This document shows positions 1,939 to 54,164 of a stretch of 64,000 bases of DNA, one piece after another. The translations under genes were made by a program, and so were the position numbers. Positions within the stretch are counted from its first letter, which is position 1. Each line of letters opens with the position of its first letter. The notes under the pieces are model-generated. The model was not told where the DNA came from, did not search any database, and worked only from the letters and a program-made list of their open reading frames with translations. The stretch covers positions 1-64,000 of the forward strand of contig JAJXUB010000002.1 of assembly GCA_021783215.1 (NCBI GenBank), read 5' to 3'. Origin of the DNA: Actinomycetes bacterium (GTDB lineage Bacteria > Actinomycetota > Actinomycetes > Actinomycetales > Dermatophilaceae).

Positions 1939-3066
1939 TCACAGGCCGAGGACGGCATACCCGGGCTTGACGACACCCTCGATGAGGGCGAGGCGCTCGT
2001 CGAACGGGATGAACGCGGACTTCATCCCGTTGACCGTCACCCAGCGCAGGTCCTCGAGGTCCCAGCCGGCCTCGTCGACGAGCAGGGCCATCTCCTTGCT
2101 CACGGACGTGTCGCTCATGAGCCGGTTGTCCGTGTTCAGGGTGACGCGGAAGCGGAGCTTCTTCAGGAGCGAGATCGGATGTGACGCGATGGAGCCGGCC
2201 GCGCCGGTCTGGACGTTCGAGCTCGGGCACATCTCGAGGGCGATCCGCTCGTCCCGGACGTAGGCCGCGAGCCGGCCGAGCCGCAGCTCGTGGGGGTCCG
2301 CGTCGAGCGCCTCCTCCAGGTGCTCCAGGACGGGGTCGCCGCGGAAGCTGATGTCGTCGATGATCCGCACGCCGTGCCCGAGCCGGTCGGTGCCGCACTC
2401 CTGGATGGCCTCCCAGATGCTCGGCAGGCCGAAGCCCTCTCCGGCGTGGATCGTGAAGTGGGCGTTCTCCCGGCGGAGGTAGCGGAACGCGCCCAGGTGG
2501 TGGCTCGGCGGGTTCCCCGCCTCGGCGCCGGCGATGTCGAACCCGACGACGCCGTCGTCCCGGTAGCGGACGGCGAGCTCGGCGATCTCCCGCGACTTCG
2601 CGACGTGGCGCATCGAGGTGAGCAGCGACGCGACGCGGATGCGGTGTCCGGCGGCGGCCGACTGCGCCTGCCCCTCGCGGAACCCGGCGCCGACGGCCTC
2701 GACGACCTGCTCGAGCCGCAGGCCGCGCTCGAGGTGGAGCTCGGGCGCGAACCGGACCTCGGCGTAGACGACGCCGTCGTCGGCGAGGTCGACGACGCAC
2801 TCGCGGGCGACCCGGCGCAGCCCGTCCTCGGTCTGCATGACGGCGACGGTGTGGGTGAACGTCTCGAGGTAGCGCTCGAGCGAGCCGGAGGCGGCGCTGT
2901 CGCGGAACCAGCGGGCCAGTGCGGCCGCGTCGTGGGCGGGCAGGCCGGTGTGGCCGATCTCGTCGGCGATCTCGAGCACCGTCCCGGGGCGCAGGCCCCC
3001 GTCGAGGTGGTCGTGCAGGAGCACCTTCGGCGCGCGGCGGATGACGTCGCCGGTCGGATGCGTCAT
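1939..3066 (-). CDS. add: Adenosine deaminase
   Basis: This 375-residue cytosolic enzyme hydrolyses adenosine (and deoxyadenosine) to inosine in purine salvage. The zinc-site motifs are all present in order: HDHLDGG near the N-terminus, FTIHAGEG with the metal-binding His and catalytic Glu, [18 protein letters not shown], and LNTDNRLMS with the paired Asp. Length matches bacterial Add. The ATG at 3066 overlaps the TGA of the upstream cupin gene by four bases (ATGA), so the two are probably translationally coupled. It is the last gene of a minus-strand nucleoside-salvage run with cdd and deoA. Confidence 0.95.
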
Positions 3067-3428
3067 GCCGGCGGCTCCTCCTCCCGGTGGGCGAGGTCCG
3101 GGGCGAACGCCGGCAGGCACACCGCGACGTACTCGGCGCCGGCGTCACCGGTCGAGAAGCGGATGCGCTCGCCGGCACGGGTGACGACGGCCTCGCCGGC
3201 CGTGACGACGAGACGACCGCCATCGTGCTCGACGACGACGGACCCGGCCAGGACGACGGTGTACTCGTCGAACTGTGGCGTCTGCGGCGGTTCGCCCCAC
3301 CCCGGTGGTGCCGTCATGTGGGCGATGGAGACGGCGGTCTCGCCGGTGTTGACCCGCCCGACGTACTCGGCGATGACCTTGCCGCCGGGGACGGGGATGC
3401 TGCTCGGGCTCGTGATGATCTCGGGCAT
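3063..3428 (-). CDS. Small cupin-domain protein
   Basis: A 121-residue single-domain protein with the glycine and proline pattern of a small cupin barrel: PPGWGEPP, the [19 protein letters not shown] strand pair, and [15 protein letters not shown]. The first cupin motif is degenerate, with few of the usual His ligands, so metal binding is uncertain. The substrate is unknown. It overlaps add by four bases and so is expected to be made together with adenosine deaminase. The 180 bases between it and deoA show no gene; they may hold a promoter for this two-gene unit, but I see no clear box. Confidence 0.75.
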
Positions 3429-20532: not shown

Positions 20533-20570
20533 CCCGACAAACCGCCCCCGGTGGGCGGTTTGTCGGGTTT
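20533..20570 (+). terminator. Rho-independent terminator after icd
   Basis: A perfect 15-base stem (CCCGACAAACCGCCC and its complement), a 5-base loop, and TTTAT on the plus strand, beginning nine bases after the icd stop codon. It is the clearest intrinsic terminator in the window. Confidence 0.92.
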
Positions 20571-21257: not shown

Positions 21258-21297
21258 CGATGCCCCCGACGCAGCGCTGCTAGCGTCGGGGGCATCG
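21258..21297 (+). terminator. Strong hairpin terminator after Cys-rich gene
   Basis: A perfect 15-base stem (CGATGCCCCCGACGC and its complement) with a 10-base loop, beginning ten bases after the stop codon. There is no T-run, as is common for actinobacterial terminators. Confidence 0.8.
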
Positions 21298-30885: not shown

Positions 30886-32094
30886 TTAGCGGCGGTGCAG
30901 GCGCCACTGGTCGGCGGCGACCGGCAGCAGCGCCCCGAAACACAGCTCGACGGCGAGCAGCCCCGTCATGAGCAGGGCCGGGGCCCCGACGTCGGACAGC
31001 CGGAAGGCGCCCCAGGACCCGCCCCCGAAGGCGTCGAGCAGGCCGACGAGCAACGCCGCGAGCAGCGCAGCCGTCGCCGCGACGGACGCCTTCGTCCAGC
31101 CGCGGGCGAGGCGCGCCATCGACCCGACGACGCGCGTGCCGATGTAGGCGCCCAGACCGACGGGGATGAGGACGACGCCGGCGACGACCATGGGGAACCT
31201 CCCCGGCGACGGGAGGCTCGCGAGGAACGGGACCATCGGCATGAGCCCCGCCTGGGAGGCCGTCCACGTCGTCGACGCCCCGGCGACGACGTGGACGCCG
31301 CTGCCGGCGGCGAAGGACATCCCCCACAGGCCGAGGTTGGGGACGACGCTCAGCTGCCCCGCCCAGAGGAGGACGTCGCCGACGAAGCCGGCGTGCAGCT
31401 CGCCGGTCACGTGGACGATGTCTCCGAAGGACAGGACGACCCCGACGAGCACCATGAGGGCCCCGGTGGCGACGGTCGCGGCGGTGCCCCGCAGCGCGGG
31501 GCCCAGGGCCCGCCGGAGCGTCGACGGGAGCGGGAGCGCGCCGAGCGGCCCCTCCGTTCCCACGTCACGGCAGTGCCACGTCAGGCCGAGCAGGCAGCCG
31601 GCCGCGGGGGTCGCGACGAGCACGAAAAGGGCGGACCACCAGGCCGGCCGGGCGGGCAGGAAGAGGGTGAGGAGCGAGAGGAGGGCGCCGGTGACGGCAT
31701 ACGAGCCGATGAACGCCCCGTAGGCGCGAAGCAGGCGGAGCCCGACGAGGCCACGCCACGTCGGGCCGTCGAGGCCGACGGATGCCGTCAGCCGCCGCGC
31801 GGACCAGGCGAGCGCGGCGAGGACGGCCGCGGTCCACAGCAGCGGGGTGAAGGCGAGGGTCGCGCTCCCGGCCGAGATCCGCGCGCCCTGGGCGAGGAAC
31901 CAGCCGTCGACCCCCAGGGCGGTGGCCTGGCCGACCCCGGCCGTCGCCGAGGAGGCGGCGGCGAAGGCAAGGAGGGCGACGACGACCGGGACGGCGGCCG
32001 TCGCGAGCGCCGCGGAGGCTCCGCCCCGGGCGGCGGTCAGGAGCGGTACGCGGTCGGCCAGCGTCGTGTGCCGTAGGCGGTCGAGGACGGTCAT
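30886..32094 (-). CDS. DUF6350 multi-spanning membrane protein
   Basis: A protein of about 402 residues (411 if the upstream ATG at 32121 is used) with around nine hydrophobic segments and few charged loops, matching the actinobacterial DUF6350 family. Members usually lie between sucCD and purN, as here. Function is unknown; transport is possible but unsupported. Internal GLLDAFGGGSWGAFRLSDVG is one of the more polar stretches. The position of the start is uncertain because neither ATG has a good ribosome binding site. A perfect 50-base palindrome lies upstream. Confidence 0.8.
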   Translation of the reverse strand: MTVLDRLRHTTLADRVPLLTAARGGASAALATAAVPVVVALLAFAAASSATAGVGQATALGVDGWFLAQGARISAGSATLAFTPLLWTAAVLAALAWSARRLTASVGLDGPTWRGLVGLRLLRAYGAFIGSYAVTGALLSLLTLFLPARPAWWSALFVLVATPAAGCLLGLTWHCRDVGTEGPLGALPLPSTLRRALGPALRGTAATVATGALMVLVGVVLSFGDIVHVTGELHAGFVGDVLLWAGQLSVVPNLGLWGMSFAAGSGVHVVAGASTTWTASQAGLMPMVPFLASLPSPGRFPMVVAGVVLIPVGLGAYIGTRVVGSMARLARGWTKASVAATAALLAALLVGLLDAFGGGSWGAFRLSDVGAPALLMTGLLAVELCFGALLPVAADQWRLHRR

Positions 32095-32216
32095 CGGGTT
32101 CAGTGTGGGCGATCCCGACATCCTCGAGAACGACGCAACGCCGGGGGACGGCGAAGTGGCTCGGGAAGATCCCCGCCAGCCGGCCTCCCCCGCCTCCCCG
32201 CCGCCCGCACAGCGCG

Positions 32217-32266
32217 ACCTACCGCCTGGTACTGGTCGTGATCACGACCAGTACCAGGCGGTAGGT
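32217..32266. repeat. Perfect 50-bp palindrome, copy 1
   Basis: The 50 bases are fully self-complementary with no loop, centred between 32241 and 32242 on CGTGATCACG. The left end reads ACCTACCGCCTGGTACTGG. It lies 56 bases beyond the sucD stop codon and upstream of the DUF6350 gene. An identical copy is at 52495-52544. As RNA it would fold into a very stable hairpin, so it may end sucCD transcription; the exact identity of two copies suggests more than that. Confidence 0.95.
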
Positions 32267-32322
32267 GAGGAAATCGGCGGGGGCGTATGCCAGGCAATGC
32301 CGGGCACCGGCATACGCGGGGA

Positions 32323-33228
32323 CTAGGCCGAGGCGGCCTGCGCGAGCTGCACCATGATCGCCCGCATGAGGTCGGCGGTCTCGGACGGCGTCTTGCCGAC
32401 CTGGACCCCGGCCGCCTCGAGGGCCTCCTTCTTCGCCTGCGCCGTGCCCGAGGAACCGGTGACGATGGCACCGGCGTGGCCCATCGTCTTGCCCTCCGGC
32501 GCGGTGAAGCCGGCGACGTAGCCGACGACGGGCTTCGTCACGTGGTCCTTGATGTAGGCGGCCGCGCGCTCCTCGGCGTCGCCGCCGATCTCGCCGATCA
32601 TGACGATGGCGTCCGTGTCGGGGTCGTTCTGGAACGCCTCGAGACAGTCGATGTGGGTCGTCCCGATGACCGGGTCGCCACCGATGCCGACGGCCGTCGA
32701 CATCCCGTGGTCGCGCAGCTCGTACATCATCTGGTAGGTCAGGGTGCCCGACTTGCTGACGAGCCCGATCCGGCCGGGCCCGCAGATGTCGGCCGGGATG
32801 ATGCCGGCGTTGGACAGGCCGGGGCTGATGATGCCGGGGCAGTTCGGCCCGATGATCCGCGTCGTGCCCTTGTCCCTGGCGTAGCTGTAGAGCTCGGCCG
32901 TGTCCCGGACCGCGACGCCCTCGGTGATGATGACGAGCAGGGGGATGCCCGCGTCGATGGCCTCGATGGCGGCAGCCTTGGCGAACGCCGGCGGGACGAA
33001 CCCGACGGAGACGTTCGCCCCGGTCTGCGCCATGGCCTCGGCGACGGTCCCGAAGACGGGAACCTCCGTGCCGCCGGGGAAGCCGACCGTCGTGCCCGCC
33101 TTGCGCGGGTTGACGCCGCCGACGACGTTGGAGCCGCTGGCGAGCATGCGGGTCGTGTGCTTCGTGCCCTCGGAACCGGTCATCCCTTGGACGATGATCT
33201 TGCTGTCTGCGTTGAGGAAGATCGCCAT
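32323..33228 (-). CDS. sucD: Succinyl-CoA synthetase alpha subunit
   Basis: A 301-residue subunit that binds CoA and carries the phosphorylated His. The Rossmann part ([16 protein letters not shown]), [20 protein letters not shown] and the active-site His region GHAGAIVTG are intact. With SucC it converts succinyl-CoA to succinate with substrate-level phosphorylation. The ATG at 33228 lies 23 bases after the sucC stop. It is the last gene of sucCD before the 50-base palindrome. Confidence 0.97.
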
Positions 33229-50386: not shown

Positions 50387-51136
50387 GCCGACGAGGCGAC
50401 GCACCTGCCGCGTCCGGGCCTCGTCGGCCGTGCGGTCGTCCAGCTCCTCCGGCTCGAAGGGGCGGCCCGTGGCCCGCTCGGCGGCGTACCCGATGAGGGC
50501 GTCGGCGAACCGCGGGTTCGCCGGGAGGACGGGCCCGTGAAGGTAGTGGCCGAAGACGTTGTGCGTGCGCGCGCCACCGGTCCGGTCGTCGCCGTTGTTG
50601 CCGTAGCCGTGGCGTACGACCCCGAACGGCTTCTGGCCCGGGGACAGCGTCGTCGAACCGGAGTGGTTCTCATAGCCGACGACGGTCCCGAACTCGGTGT
50701 CGAGGACGGTCGGGCCGATCATCCGCTTGGCGTTGCCGTGGGTCGTCACGTCGAGGATGCCGAGCCCGGGCAGCCGCGTGCCCTCGACGGTGACGAACGC
50801 GTTGCCGAAGAGCTGGTACGTGCCGCAGATCATCATCATGGGGACGCCGTCGGCGGCGAGTCCCCTCAGCCTGTCGGCGATCTCGACGAGGTCGGCCTCG
50901 ACGCGGGCCTGGCCCGAGTCCTGGCCGCCGCCGCCGAGGACCAGGTGGACATCGGCCGGCCAGTCCGCGCCGGGGTGGTGCTGGACGACGTTCGGGGTGT
51001 AGCCGTGGCGTCGGATCCGCACGGCGACGCACCGCGTGTTGCCGAGGTCGCCGTAGATGCTCATCTCGCGGGGGTAGAGGTGGACGACGGTGATCGTCCC
51101 CTTGCTCGCGGGCGCCGTGTCGGGCATGCGGGTCAT
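50384..51136 (-). CDS. gatD: Lipid II isoglutaminyl synthase, glutaminase subunit GatD
   Basis: A 250-residue class I glutamine amidotransferase of the CobQ-like type. The nucleophilic Cys lies in MMMICGTYQLFGNA and the catalytic His in FGHYLHGPVLPANP. It releases ammonia from glutamine for MurT, which amidates the D-Glu of lipid II. The ATG at 51136 overlaps the murT stop by four bases (ATGA), as usual for this pair. Length is as expected. Confidence 0.93.
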   Translation of the reverse strand: MTRMPDTAPASKGTITVVHLYPREMSIYGDLGNTRCVAVRIRRHGYTPNVVQHHPGADWPADVHLVLGGGGQDSGQARVEADLVEIADRLRGLAADGVPMMMICGTYQLFGNAFVTVEGTRLPGLGILDVTTHGNAKRMIGPTVLDTEFGTVVGYENHSGSTTLSPGQKPFGVVRHGYGNNGDDRTGGARTHNVFGHYLHGPVLPANPRFADALIGYAAERATGRPFEPEELDDRTADEARTRQVRRLVG

Positions 51137-52434
51137 CCCTCCTCGCCGAAGCCGGCCAGCCCGTGGCGCGCGGCGAGGGTCCGGCGCAGCGCCATCATGG
51201 CCGTGTACGTGCAGAAGAGCCGCTTCGGCTCGTCGTGGTAGGCCGCGACGAACGCGTCGAGTGCGCGGGTGAGGTCCGGCTCGACCTGCTCGACGGCGAC
51301 GTCGTCGTACTCGAGGCGCAGGGCCATGTCCCAGGCCCGTACGCCGCTCGTCCACGCCACACCTCTCGCGCGGAGCGAGGAGAAGTCGACGTCGTAGAGC
51401 CAGCTGACGTCACGCCCGTCGGCGTCGTTGTCGTTGATGGCGATCATCGTCGCGACGGGCGTGGAGGTGTAGGTCCCGAGCGCGACGGTGAAGCCGGCCG
51501 GGTTCTTGACGAGGACGAGCTCGAGCGGCTGGCCGTCGATCATGACCGTCTCGCCACGACCGAACGGGGGGTTGACGGCCGCGAGCGCGGTGACCGCCGT
51601 CGCGGGGTCGAACGCGCCGCCGAGGAGGAGCCGCGCGGTCGTCGTCGCGGCCGTCGCGTTGATCATCGCGGCGAGCCCGCGCTGACGGAGCGTGACCGGC
51701 CCGACCGGGTCGTCGCCGAAGACGACGTCGAACGCCCGGTCGTCGACCGGGCGGAGCAGGCCGTCGTCGGCCGTCGCCGGCGGTGCCGTGAAGTCGTCGC
51801 CGAAGCGCACGTCCTGCTCGAGGAGCTCGGGCAGGCGGTCGGCGATCGCCGCATGGACGCCGAACCAGCGCACGGTCACGCCGAGGCGAAGGGTCGCGGC
51901 GATACGGGCGACGAAGGAGTCGTCCCGGTTGAGCACCACGCCGCTCGTCGTACAGCCGGCCAGCTGCTCCAACAGGGCTGCGGTGTGGTCGATCTCGGCG
52001 AACCGGTCGAGCTGGTCACGCGCGACGTTGAGCAGCAGCGCATGGGTCGGGGCGACGGCCGCGGCGAACCGGAGGGCGTGCGCCTCGTCGAGCTCGAGGA
52101 CGGCCATGTCCGTGTCGAGCCGGCCGGAGCGGCCGAGCTCGGGGAGCATCGAGGAGATGACGCCGCGCGTGAAGTTGCTCCCTGTCGGGTTCGTGAAGAC
52201 GCGCTTGCCGTGGGCGCGCAGGAGGGCGACGAGCATCTTCGTCGTCGTCGTCTTGCCGTTCGTGCCGGTGACGACGACGATGCCGCCTCGCACCTCCGAG
52301 AGGGCCCGCGCGAGGAAGCCCGGGTCCACCGTCTCGGCGACGAGCCCCGGGAGGGCCGATCCCCCGCCACGCACCCGTGCCCCGACGCGGGCGGCCTTGC
52401 CGGCGACGACGGCGATCGTGTTACGCAGGGGCAC
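51133..52434 (-). CDS. murT: Lipid II isoglutaminyl synthase, Mur ligase subunit MurT
   Basis: A 433-residue Mur ligase-like protein. The ATP site VVTGTNGKTTTTKML, the central LNVARDQLDRFAEIDHTA, and the C-terminal DUF1727 domain (LVKNPAGF, IAINDNDADGRDVSWLYDVDF, GVRAWDMALRLEYD) are present. With GatD it amidates D-glutamate in lipid II. The protein has only two Cys (AGCTTSG and LFCTYTA), so the four-Cys zinc ribbon described in Staphylococcus aureus MurT is absent. In its place (residues ~190-235) is an Asp-rich stretch. The GTG at 52434 lies six bases after TAGGCT. Coupled to gatD. Confidence 0.93.
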   Translation of the reverse strand: MPLRNTIAVVAGKAARVGARVRGGGSALPGLVAETVDPGFLARALSEVRGGIVVVTGTNGKTTTTKMLVALLRAHGKRVFTNPTGSNFTRGVISSMLPELGRSGRLDTDMAVLELDEAHALRFAAAVAPTHALLLNVARDQLDRFAEIDHTAALLEQLAGCTTSGVVLNRDDSFVARIAATLRLGVTVRWFGVHAAIADRLPELLEQDVRFGDDFTAPPATADDGLLRPVDDRAFDVVFGDDPVGPVTLRQRGLAAMINATAATTTARLLLGGAFDPATAVTALAAVNPPFGRGETVMIDGQPLELVLVKNPAGFTVALGTYTSTPVATMIAINDNDADGRDVSWLYDVDFSSLRARGVAWTSGVRAWDMALRLEYDDVAVEQVEPDLTRALDAFVAAYHDEPKRLFCTYTAMMALRRTLAARHGLAGFGEEG

Positions 52435-52446: not shown

Positions 52447-52493
52447 CGGGCGCTCGGGCTGAGTCCCCGGCATACGCGCCCTCCCCAGCGACT

Positions 52494-52545
52494 GACCTAC
52501 CGCCTGGTACTGGTCGTGATCACGACCAGTACCAGGCGGTAGGTC
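52494..52545. repeat. Perfect palindrome, copy 2 (52 bp)
   Basis: The central 50 bases (52495-52544) are identical to 32217-32266, and here the symmetry extends one more base each side. It starts 30 bases past the guaA stop codon and precedes the murT promoter. No loop separates the arms; the centre is CGTGATCACG. Confidence 0.95.
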
Positions 52546-52574
52546 GCGCGGTTGGCGAGGACAGCGGCGGGCCG

Positions 52575-54164
52575 TCACTCCCACTCGATCGTCCCCGGGG
52601 GCTTGCTCGTCACGTCGAGGACGACCCGGTTGACCTCGCGGACCTCGTTGGTGATCCGCGTCGAGATCCGCGCCAGGACGTCGTACGGCAACCGGGTCCA
52701 GTCCGCCGTCATCGCGTCCTCGGAGGAGACGGGGCGCAGGACGACCGGATGGCCGTAGGTCCGCCCGTCGCCCTGCACGCCGACGGAGCGGACGTCGGCC
52801 AGGAGGACGACGGGACACTGCCAGATCTCCCGGTCCAGGCCGGCCGCGGTGAGCTCCTCCCGGGCGATGGCGTCGGCGCGGCGGAGCGTGTCGAGCCGGT
52901 CGGCGGTCACCTCTCCGACGATGCGTATGCCGAGCCCCGGCCCCGGGAACGGCTGCCGGAACACCATCGTCTCCGGGAGGCCGAGCTCGAGGCCGACCTG
53001 GCGCACCTCGTCCTTGAACAGGAGCCGGAGCGGCTCGACGAGGGAGAACTGGAGGTCGTCGGGCAGGCCGCCGACGTTGTGGTGCGACTTGATGTTGGCC
53101 GTCCCTTCGCCGCCGCCGGACTCGACGACGTCGGGGTAGAGCGTCCCCTGGACGAGCCACCTGACGGGGTGCCCGGTGTCCGTGCCGGCGACATCGCGGG
53201 CGGCCTGCTCGAAGCACCGGATGAACTCGGCGCCGATGATCTTGCGCTTGGCCTCCGGGTCGGTCACGCCGGCGAGCGCGGTGAGGAACCGCTCCTTCGC
53301 GTCGAAGACGACGAGGCGGGCCCCGGTGACCTCGACGAAGTCGGTCTCGACCTGGTCGGCCTCCCCCTCGCGGAGCAGCCCGTGGTCGACGAACACGCAC
53401 GTCAGCTGGTCGCCGACCGCACGCGCCACGAGGGCGCCGGCGACGGCCGAGTCGACGCCGCCGGAGAGAGCGCACAGGACCCGGTCGCCGCCGACCTGGG
53501 CCCGGACGCGCTCGACGAGCTCCTCGGCGACGTTCCCCGGGGTCCAGTCGGGCCGGATGCCGGCCCCACGCCACAGGAAGTTCTCCAGCACCCGCTGCCC
53601 GTATGCCGAGTGCGCCACCTCGGGGTGCCACTGGACGCCGTACAGGTGGCGCTCGTCGTCCTCGAAGGCGGCGATCCGCGCGCCGTCCGTCGACGCCGTG
53701 ACGCGCAGGCCCGCGGGCGCCTGCGAGACCGCGTCGCCGTGGCTCATCCACACGGACTGGTCCGCGGGCTGGCCGGCGAAGAGCGTCGACCGGCCGTCGA
53801 GGATGTGGGCCGGTGTGGGCCCGAACTCCGACAGCCCGGTCCGCGCGACCTCGCCGCCGAGGGCCTGCGCCATGGCCTGGAACCCGTAGCACATCCCGAA
53901 CACGGGCACCCCGGCCGACAGCAGGGCCGGGTCGAGGGAGGGCGCCCCGTCGGCATACACCGACGAGGGGCCACCGGAGAGGATGACGGCGGCGGGCCTG
54001 CGGGCGAGCAGCTCGGCGACGGGCGTCGTATGCGGGACGACCTCGGAGTAGACGTGGGCCTCACGGACCCGGCGCGCGATGAGCTGGGCGTACTGCGCGC
54101 CGTAGTCGACGACGAGGACCGCCCGGTGGGCGGTGCGGGGAAGAAGCTCGGAGGCGGTCGTCAC
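52575..54164 (-). CDS. guaA: GMP synthase (glutamine-hydrolysing)
   Basis: A 529-residue enzyme converting XMP to GMP. The N-terminal glutaminase has the Cys in [11 protein letters not shown] (Phe rather than Gln after Gly) and the His/Glu in [12 protein letters not shown]. The ATP pyrophosphatase domain has the P-loop [14 protein letters not shown], and the C-terminal dimerisation domain has [10 protein letters not shown] and [13 protein letters not shown]. Length is typical. The GTG at 54164 lies seven bases after TAGCCT. A perfect palindrome follows its stop. Confidence 0.97.

Follow-up and report, generated by a model that had tools for sequence, protein, structure and literature searches.

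The 64,000-nt stretch of actinobacterial DNA analysed here (the window) contains one perfect palindrome of 50 bp in two copies, each located 30-56 bases past the stop codon of a minus-strand gene. This raises the question of what kind of element the palindrome is and how it came to be present more than once. That the two 50-mers are identical, loopless and fully self-complementary had been noticed in the first-pass annotation and was confirmed. The match is far beyond chance: with up to three mismatches allowed, the 50-mer is found at two places in the window and at none in 100 shuffled sequences. The second-longest inverted repeat in the window has arms of only 15 bp (loops of up to 12 allowed). 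The position of both copies downstream of stop codons was likewise verified, as was the lack of a transposase among the annotated neighbours. An overview of the two loci is given in Table 1. Two other strong inverted repeats, whose arms measure 15 bp, are located at 20533-20567 and 21258-21297 (loops of 5 and 10, respectively); they are unrelated in sequence and likely ordinary gene-end hairpins.

Table 1 Features of the two palindrome loci in the window. Boundaries of the extended units are approximate.
Feature	Positions	Strand	Evidence or remark
Copy A, perfect 50-bp palindrome ACCTACCGCCTGGTACTGGTCGTGATCACGACCAGTACCAGGCGGTAGGT	32217..32266	.	Model R1, 76.6 bits, both strands
Copy B, same 50-mer at 52495-52544, symmetry widened to 52 bp	52494..52545	.	
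Copy A, extended unit	32205..32278	.	Flank comparison
Copy B, extended unit	52484..52556	.	Flank comparison
Imperfect stem-loop GCGTATGCC...GGCATACGC, distinct from the palindrome, in the gap from the sucD stop to copy A	32283..32317	-	
sucD, succinyl-CoA ligase alpha subunit	32323..33228	-	PF02629, PF00549; 3' end faces copy A, 56 bp
DUF6350 gene, downstream of copy A, same direction	30886..32094	-	PF19877
guaA, GMP synthase	52575..54164	-	PF00117, PF00958; 3' end faces copy B, 30 bp
MurT-like Mur ligase gene, downstream of copy B, same direction	51133..52434	-	PF08353, PF08245

The source genome (G000) is a draft of 2.28 Mb in 196 contigs. A genome-wide search with up to three mismatches over 50 bp located the 50-mer at seven places, six of them exact and one a variant on contig C69, where a T to G and an A to C change at paired positions leave the palindrome intact. 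The 26-bp core is found at ten places. A covariance model (R1), for which 42 copies out of four genera had been aligned without gaps, located 11 copies in G000, and 24 strand matches at E<=0.01 imply a weaker twelfth. With at least 11 copies in this genome, the simpler view that only the two copies in the window exist, as a duplicated terminator, is refuted. On contig C69 (L270, 1741-3002), two copies 1.2 kb apart surround a single gene, whose 318-aa product is weakly similar to AbiEi; a homologue of this gene adjoins a copy in the related genome G037. A composite element was considered for this pair and rejected, as the enclosed gene is only weakly AbiEi-like, the neighbours encode PadR and a penicillin-binding protein, and no transposase is present.

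Of the 188 species in 53 genera examined from the same actinobacterial family, 44 species in 18 genera gave matches to R1, many of these with one or two weak matches only; the copy numbers from this survey are at least those listed. Judged by the best sucD matches alone (Phycicoccus, Terrabacter, Tetrasphaera), the family is probably the Intrasporangiaceae/Dermatophilaceae group. In a fuller count, 59 strand matches were obtained for G037 and 48 for its congener G184, which correspond to about 29 and 24 places. In both genomes the members score at least 50 bits, followed by a sharp drop and few weak matches. The third species of this genus, G074, carries no copy. Similarly, G162 has at least 15 copies and its congeners have zero to two matches. 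Such an uneven spread among related species is one of the traits by which REPs are recognised. Every genome has its own consensus, and among 396 genomes sampled across the order, strong R1 matches are confined to this family. A viral, phage or plasmid origin was rejected, as the exact core was not found in viral contigs and the 50-mer had no match in phage and plasmid records.

All versions of the element share CTAC...GTAG feet, an inner GTA...TAC and a centre near GTCGTGATCACGAC. The letters between these boxes are lineage-specific, namely CCGCCTG in G000 and G011 and CCACGCA or GGCGCA in G037 and G184, and G162 has AGTG where the others have CTGG. The GC content of the element is about 0.60, compared with 0.72 in its surroundings. 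The arms co-vary: in the 42-sequence alignment, 94.3% of the cells are paired, and 11 of the 22 pairs are changed on both sides. Compared with 31 in shuffles, compensating cells number 84, a figure that is inflated by relatedness. Pairs 7 and 8 vary together even within G037 alone, and at pairs 10 and 11, which differ between genera, every one of the 42 sequences has a standard pair. Covariation alone is no proof of an RNA, because the duplex site of a symmetric protein or palindrome-correcting mutation also keeps the arms alike.

The conserved stretch reaches about 10 nt past the 50-mer. Its outer ends read CTAnCG....CGnTAG in G011. In G000 they are unequal: eight of the 11 copies have CAG at one end and CGC at the opposite end, and both orientations occur. 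The ends of copy A are unequal as well, reading outward CGCGCTGTGCGG on the left and GAGGAAATCGGC on the right; those of copy B, CAGTCGCTGGG on the left and CGCGCGGTTGG on the right, are the CAG/CGC ends of the other copies in one orientation of the two. About half of the copies in G184 carry an asymmetric variant (ACAGCC opposite GGTC), again in both orientations, and two copies with this variant, L209 and L210, are identical over 50 bp. Since asymmetric variants recur in both orientations, the unit would most simply have been copied as a block. In-phase repeats of the arm foot adjoin a few copies (L225, 5806-5840; L254, about 2940-3000; L266, about 2960-3090), either as TAG or GTAGC every 12-13 nt or, at L254, as a 25-nt unit that contains GAGCTATC. 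Two copies 102 bp apart in G011 (L226, 4181-4332) are apparently a tandem duplication that includes the flank.

To place the copies relative to genes, a simple codon-usage method was used for gene calling, some calls of which are certainly wrong in detail. About 99 copies were placed: 49 between convergent genes, 41 between genes of the same direction, six between divergent genes, one inside a called gene and the rest at contig ends. For the 76 classified copies of the four main genomes, these numbers are 37 convergent, 34 same-direction and five divergent. Convergent and divergent gene pairs are about equally frequent on a chromosome, so that the copies, at 37 to 5, are strongly biased; Fisher tests agree, but convergent pairs are under-represented in their background through the way in which the loci were cut. 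Same-direction copies are located at a median of 30 bp from the upstream stop and 96 bp from the next start, and a few precede that start by 20-30 bp. Both the preference for convergent and unidirectional gene pairs and the presence of many intergenic copies of one palindrome (in G000, G037 and G184) are found in REPs too.

This placement bears on two functions that had been proposed for the palindrome. A nucleoid or partition site is unlikely, with copies at gene ends and spread across all large contigs of G037, and so is an operator for a large dimeric protein, with copies at 3' ends and between convergent genes and not at promoters. More generally, the palindrome may bind a large symmetric protein, of the gyrase or nucleoid type or a lineage-specific regulator, and be tolerated only at gene ends. 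The boxes (CTAC, GTA, GTCGTGAT) are indeed about 10-12 bp apart on both sides of the dyad, with a further CTA/TAG in G011, one-sided variants are tolerated, and the position between convergent genes is reminiscent of gyrase at REPs (PMC3733652). Recognition of a duplex, however, needs no symmetry at the variable positions between the boxes, and these stay symmetric (pairs 10 and 11). As the copies are also scattered over contigs in no evident pattern and are patchy between congeners, a protein site of this kind is considered improbable.

Read as RNA, the 50-mer is predicted to fold into a single 23-pair stem with a GAUC loop (-47.6 kcal/mol, z -13). A known RNA family was rejected, with no Rfam match at 30800-54300. 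The predicted hairpin, the compensating changes in its arms and the sites at 3' ends and between convergent genes are all consistent with a bidirectional terminator that is retained for ending both flanking transcripts, its shared sequence being kept constant either by a factor specific to terminators or through gene conversion. This explanation is nevertheless rather unlikely. A terminator requires complementarity of its arms and no fixed 26-bp core. No terminator-like site with a T-run is found at 32000-33000, and no T-run is evident in the flanks of the other copies. In the sense orientation, 30 A-C mismatches compare with 26 G-U pairs, so that RNA pairing is not visibly protected, a test of moderate power since a 22-bp stem tolerates a mismatch. 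Several copies are adjoined by separate stem-loops (32283-32317 in the window; L249, L259, L261 and L262 in G037), and the CGAAGGGGGACCC hairpins of G037 stand beside the element. Some orthologous junctions consist of a 10-bp gap with no hairpin, and entire congeneric species are without the family. The element thus resembles intrinsic bidirectional terminators as a strong hairpin past stops and between convergent genes, and differs from them in its core, fixed across genera, in the lack of a U-tract and in its presence or absence at the same junction in congeners. A role as a bidirectional 3'-end hairpin or terminator looks possible but secondary, and a hairpin of such predicted strength will still affect any transcript running through it.

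The stem-loop beside copy A is a candidate for an ordinary 3'-end hairpin. It is located directly past the sucD stop and consists of two inverted GGCATACG words, with -25.3 kcal/mol for a 61-nt stretch (z -1.95) and no U-tract. The octamer GGCATACG/CGTATGCC itself is found at 55 sites in the window (28 on the plus and 27 on the minus strand; for example at 623, 29087, 32284, 32309 and 52469), compared with 3.7 expected from a third-order Markov model. Most sites are inside genes, via codons that are rare at the GC content of the host (GCA TAC, TAT GCC). The genome total of the octamer is 1202, versus 594 for the reversed word. Its frequency is similarly high in G011, G060, G017, G022 and G068, and it is nearly absent in G037, G162 and G052. 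Around other copies it is frequent as well, being present in 6 of the 22 flanking stretches of 90 bp, and it could be a word of the uptake, recombination or methylation type. Another word, CGAAGGGGG, is very frequent in the loci of G037 and G184 (113 and 115 occurrences in about 140 kb each) and nearly absent in G011; in G037 and G184 it forms the stems of ordinary-looking gene-end hairpins.

None of the orthologous places that were fetched was found to carry the palindrome, and the congeners G037 and G184 have only six junctions in common. The junction at L266 measures 142 bp with the copy in G037 and 10 bp and 95 bp without it in G074 and G184, respectively. Similarly, the L263 junction measures 117 bp with a copy and 39 and 23 bp without. 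Judged by these lengths, the pattern fits insertion, with loss in the other species as the alternative; at this divergence between congeners, exact empty sites are unreadable, and none was found to the base. The presence and absence among sister species could reflect repeated loss of a functional site. A further point against insertion is that the copies 20-30 bp upstream of starts should disturb expression.

Transposases of the Y1 and IS110 types were searched for as possible mobilisers. The check for REP-associated transposases, run on the four carriers G000, G011, G037 and G052, yielded no RAYT/Y1 transposase (PF01797), by which a RAYT-driven REP was rejected. IS110 was rejected as well, as it is not consistently present and is absent from several copy-rich genomes. 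It is very improbable that the palindrome represents two abutted terminal repeats, left as remnant ends or as a MITE of a conventional DDE transposon. The element is palindromic, non-coding, lower in GC and insertion-like, and bacterial MITEs such as ERIC are similar in habit (PMC10969869, PMC2229807). Against this stand the annotated neighbours, which include no transposase, the flanks of the copies, which have no consistent target-site duplication, and the distribution of IS110. ERIC and other bacterial MITEs are likewise intergenic, non-coding inverted-repeat elements, copied in trans as the present element would be, but by published description they measure 70-300 bp and their terminal inverted repeats flank a middle of different sequence, whereas the unit described here is nearly all palindrome.

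Two tagged superfamilies of REPs are available for comparison. GTAG REPs have stems of 5-13 bp, loops of 2-20 and a GTAG that is unpaired and found at one end only; CGTC REPs, known from alpha-Proteobacteria and as RPE from Rickettsia, have a stem of 8-9 bp, a loop of 4-5 and a CGTC tag at one end (PMC3733652). Both are located at convergent and unidirectional gene ends, are unevenly distributed and reach 20-100 copies in many families; the survey makes no mention of Actinobacteria (PMC3733652). The element shares several properties with the GTAG REPs and REPINs that are accompanied by RAYTs in Pseudomonas, Stenotrophomonas and Escherichia: these, too, are dispersed, lineage-specific and patchy palindromes between convergent and same-direction genes, and a GTAG tetranucleotide is found at the hairpin foot here as well. 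In contrast to them, its stem of 22-25 bp is loopless as a duplex, its CTAC is paired with GTAG, and no RAYT is present in the four carriers. CGTC REPs are similar in that they are dispersed palindromes with no transposase of their own and are located chiefly at the ends of genes (PMC3733652), but differ from the element in stem length and symmetry, which places it outside this superfamily. A literature search on the core sequence and on actinobacterial palindromic repeats yielded nothing relevant. The repeats are classified as an undescribed family of a known kind, REPs in the broad sense, because they agree with the broad definition and lack the defining features of both tagged superfamilies.

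The 50-mer is thus probably the core of a REP-like element of about 70 bp that was copied as a block into intergenic DNA, mostly past stop codons and between convergent genes. The suggestion of a dispersed REP-like element and of recent spread, also made in the first-pass annotation, is supported by the copy number, the patchiness among congeners, the lineage-specific consensus, the block copying, the gene-end sites and the absence at orthologous places. Such a miniature non-coding element would spread within a genome by copying of the whole unit, and insertion directly behind a stop codon or between convergent genes would be tolerated. We infer that a mobilising enzyme exists, although the searches for Y1 and IS110 transposases yielded no consistent candidate, a point against this reading. 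The enzyme may act in trans and recognise either the folded hairpin, as single-stranded DNA or as a cruciform, or the conserved boxes, possibly the CTAC/GTAG feet, GTA and the GTCGTGATCACGAC centre. Within a transcript, the hairpin (about -48 kcal/mol) may mark 3' ends from either side, through stability or termination, as a side effect.

REP-type repeats have chiefly been described from Proteobacteria, and the interest of the element described here lies partly in its actinobacterial context. It is conceivable, though rather doubtful, that it exemplifies fully palindromic actinobacterial mobile repeats that spread by a non-RAYT enzyme or a replication-linked process, the folded hairpin being copied as a block and the arms kept alike. 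A family of long loopless palindromes that is rich in one species and missing in its congener represents a natural experiment on the movement of palindromes without a transposase and on transcript ends.
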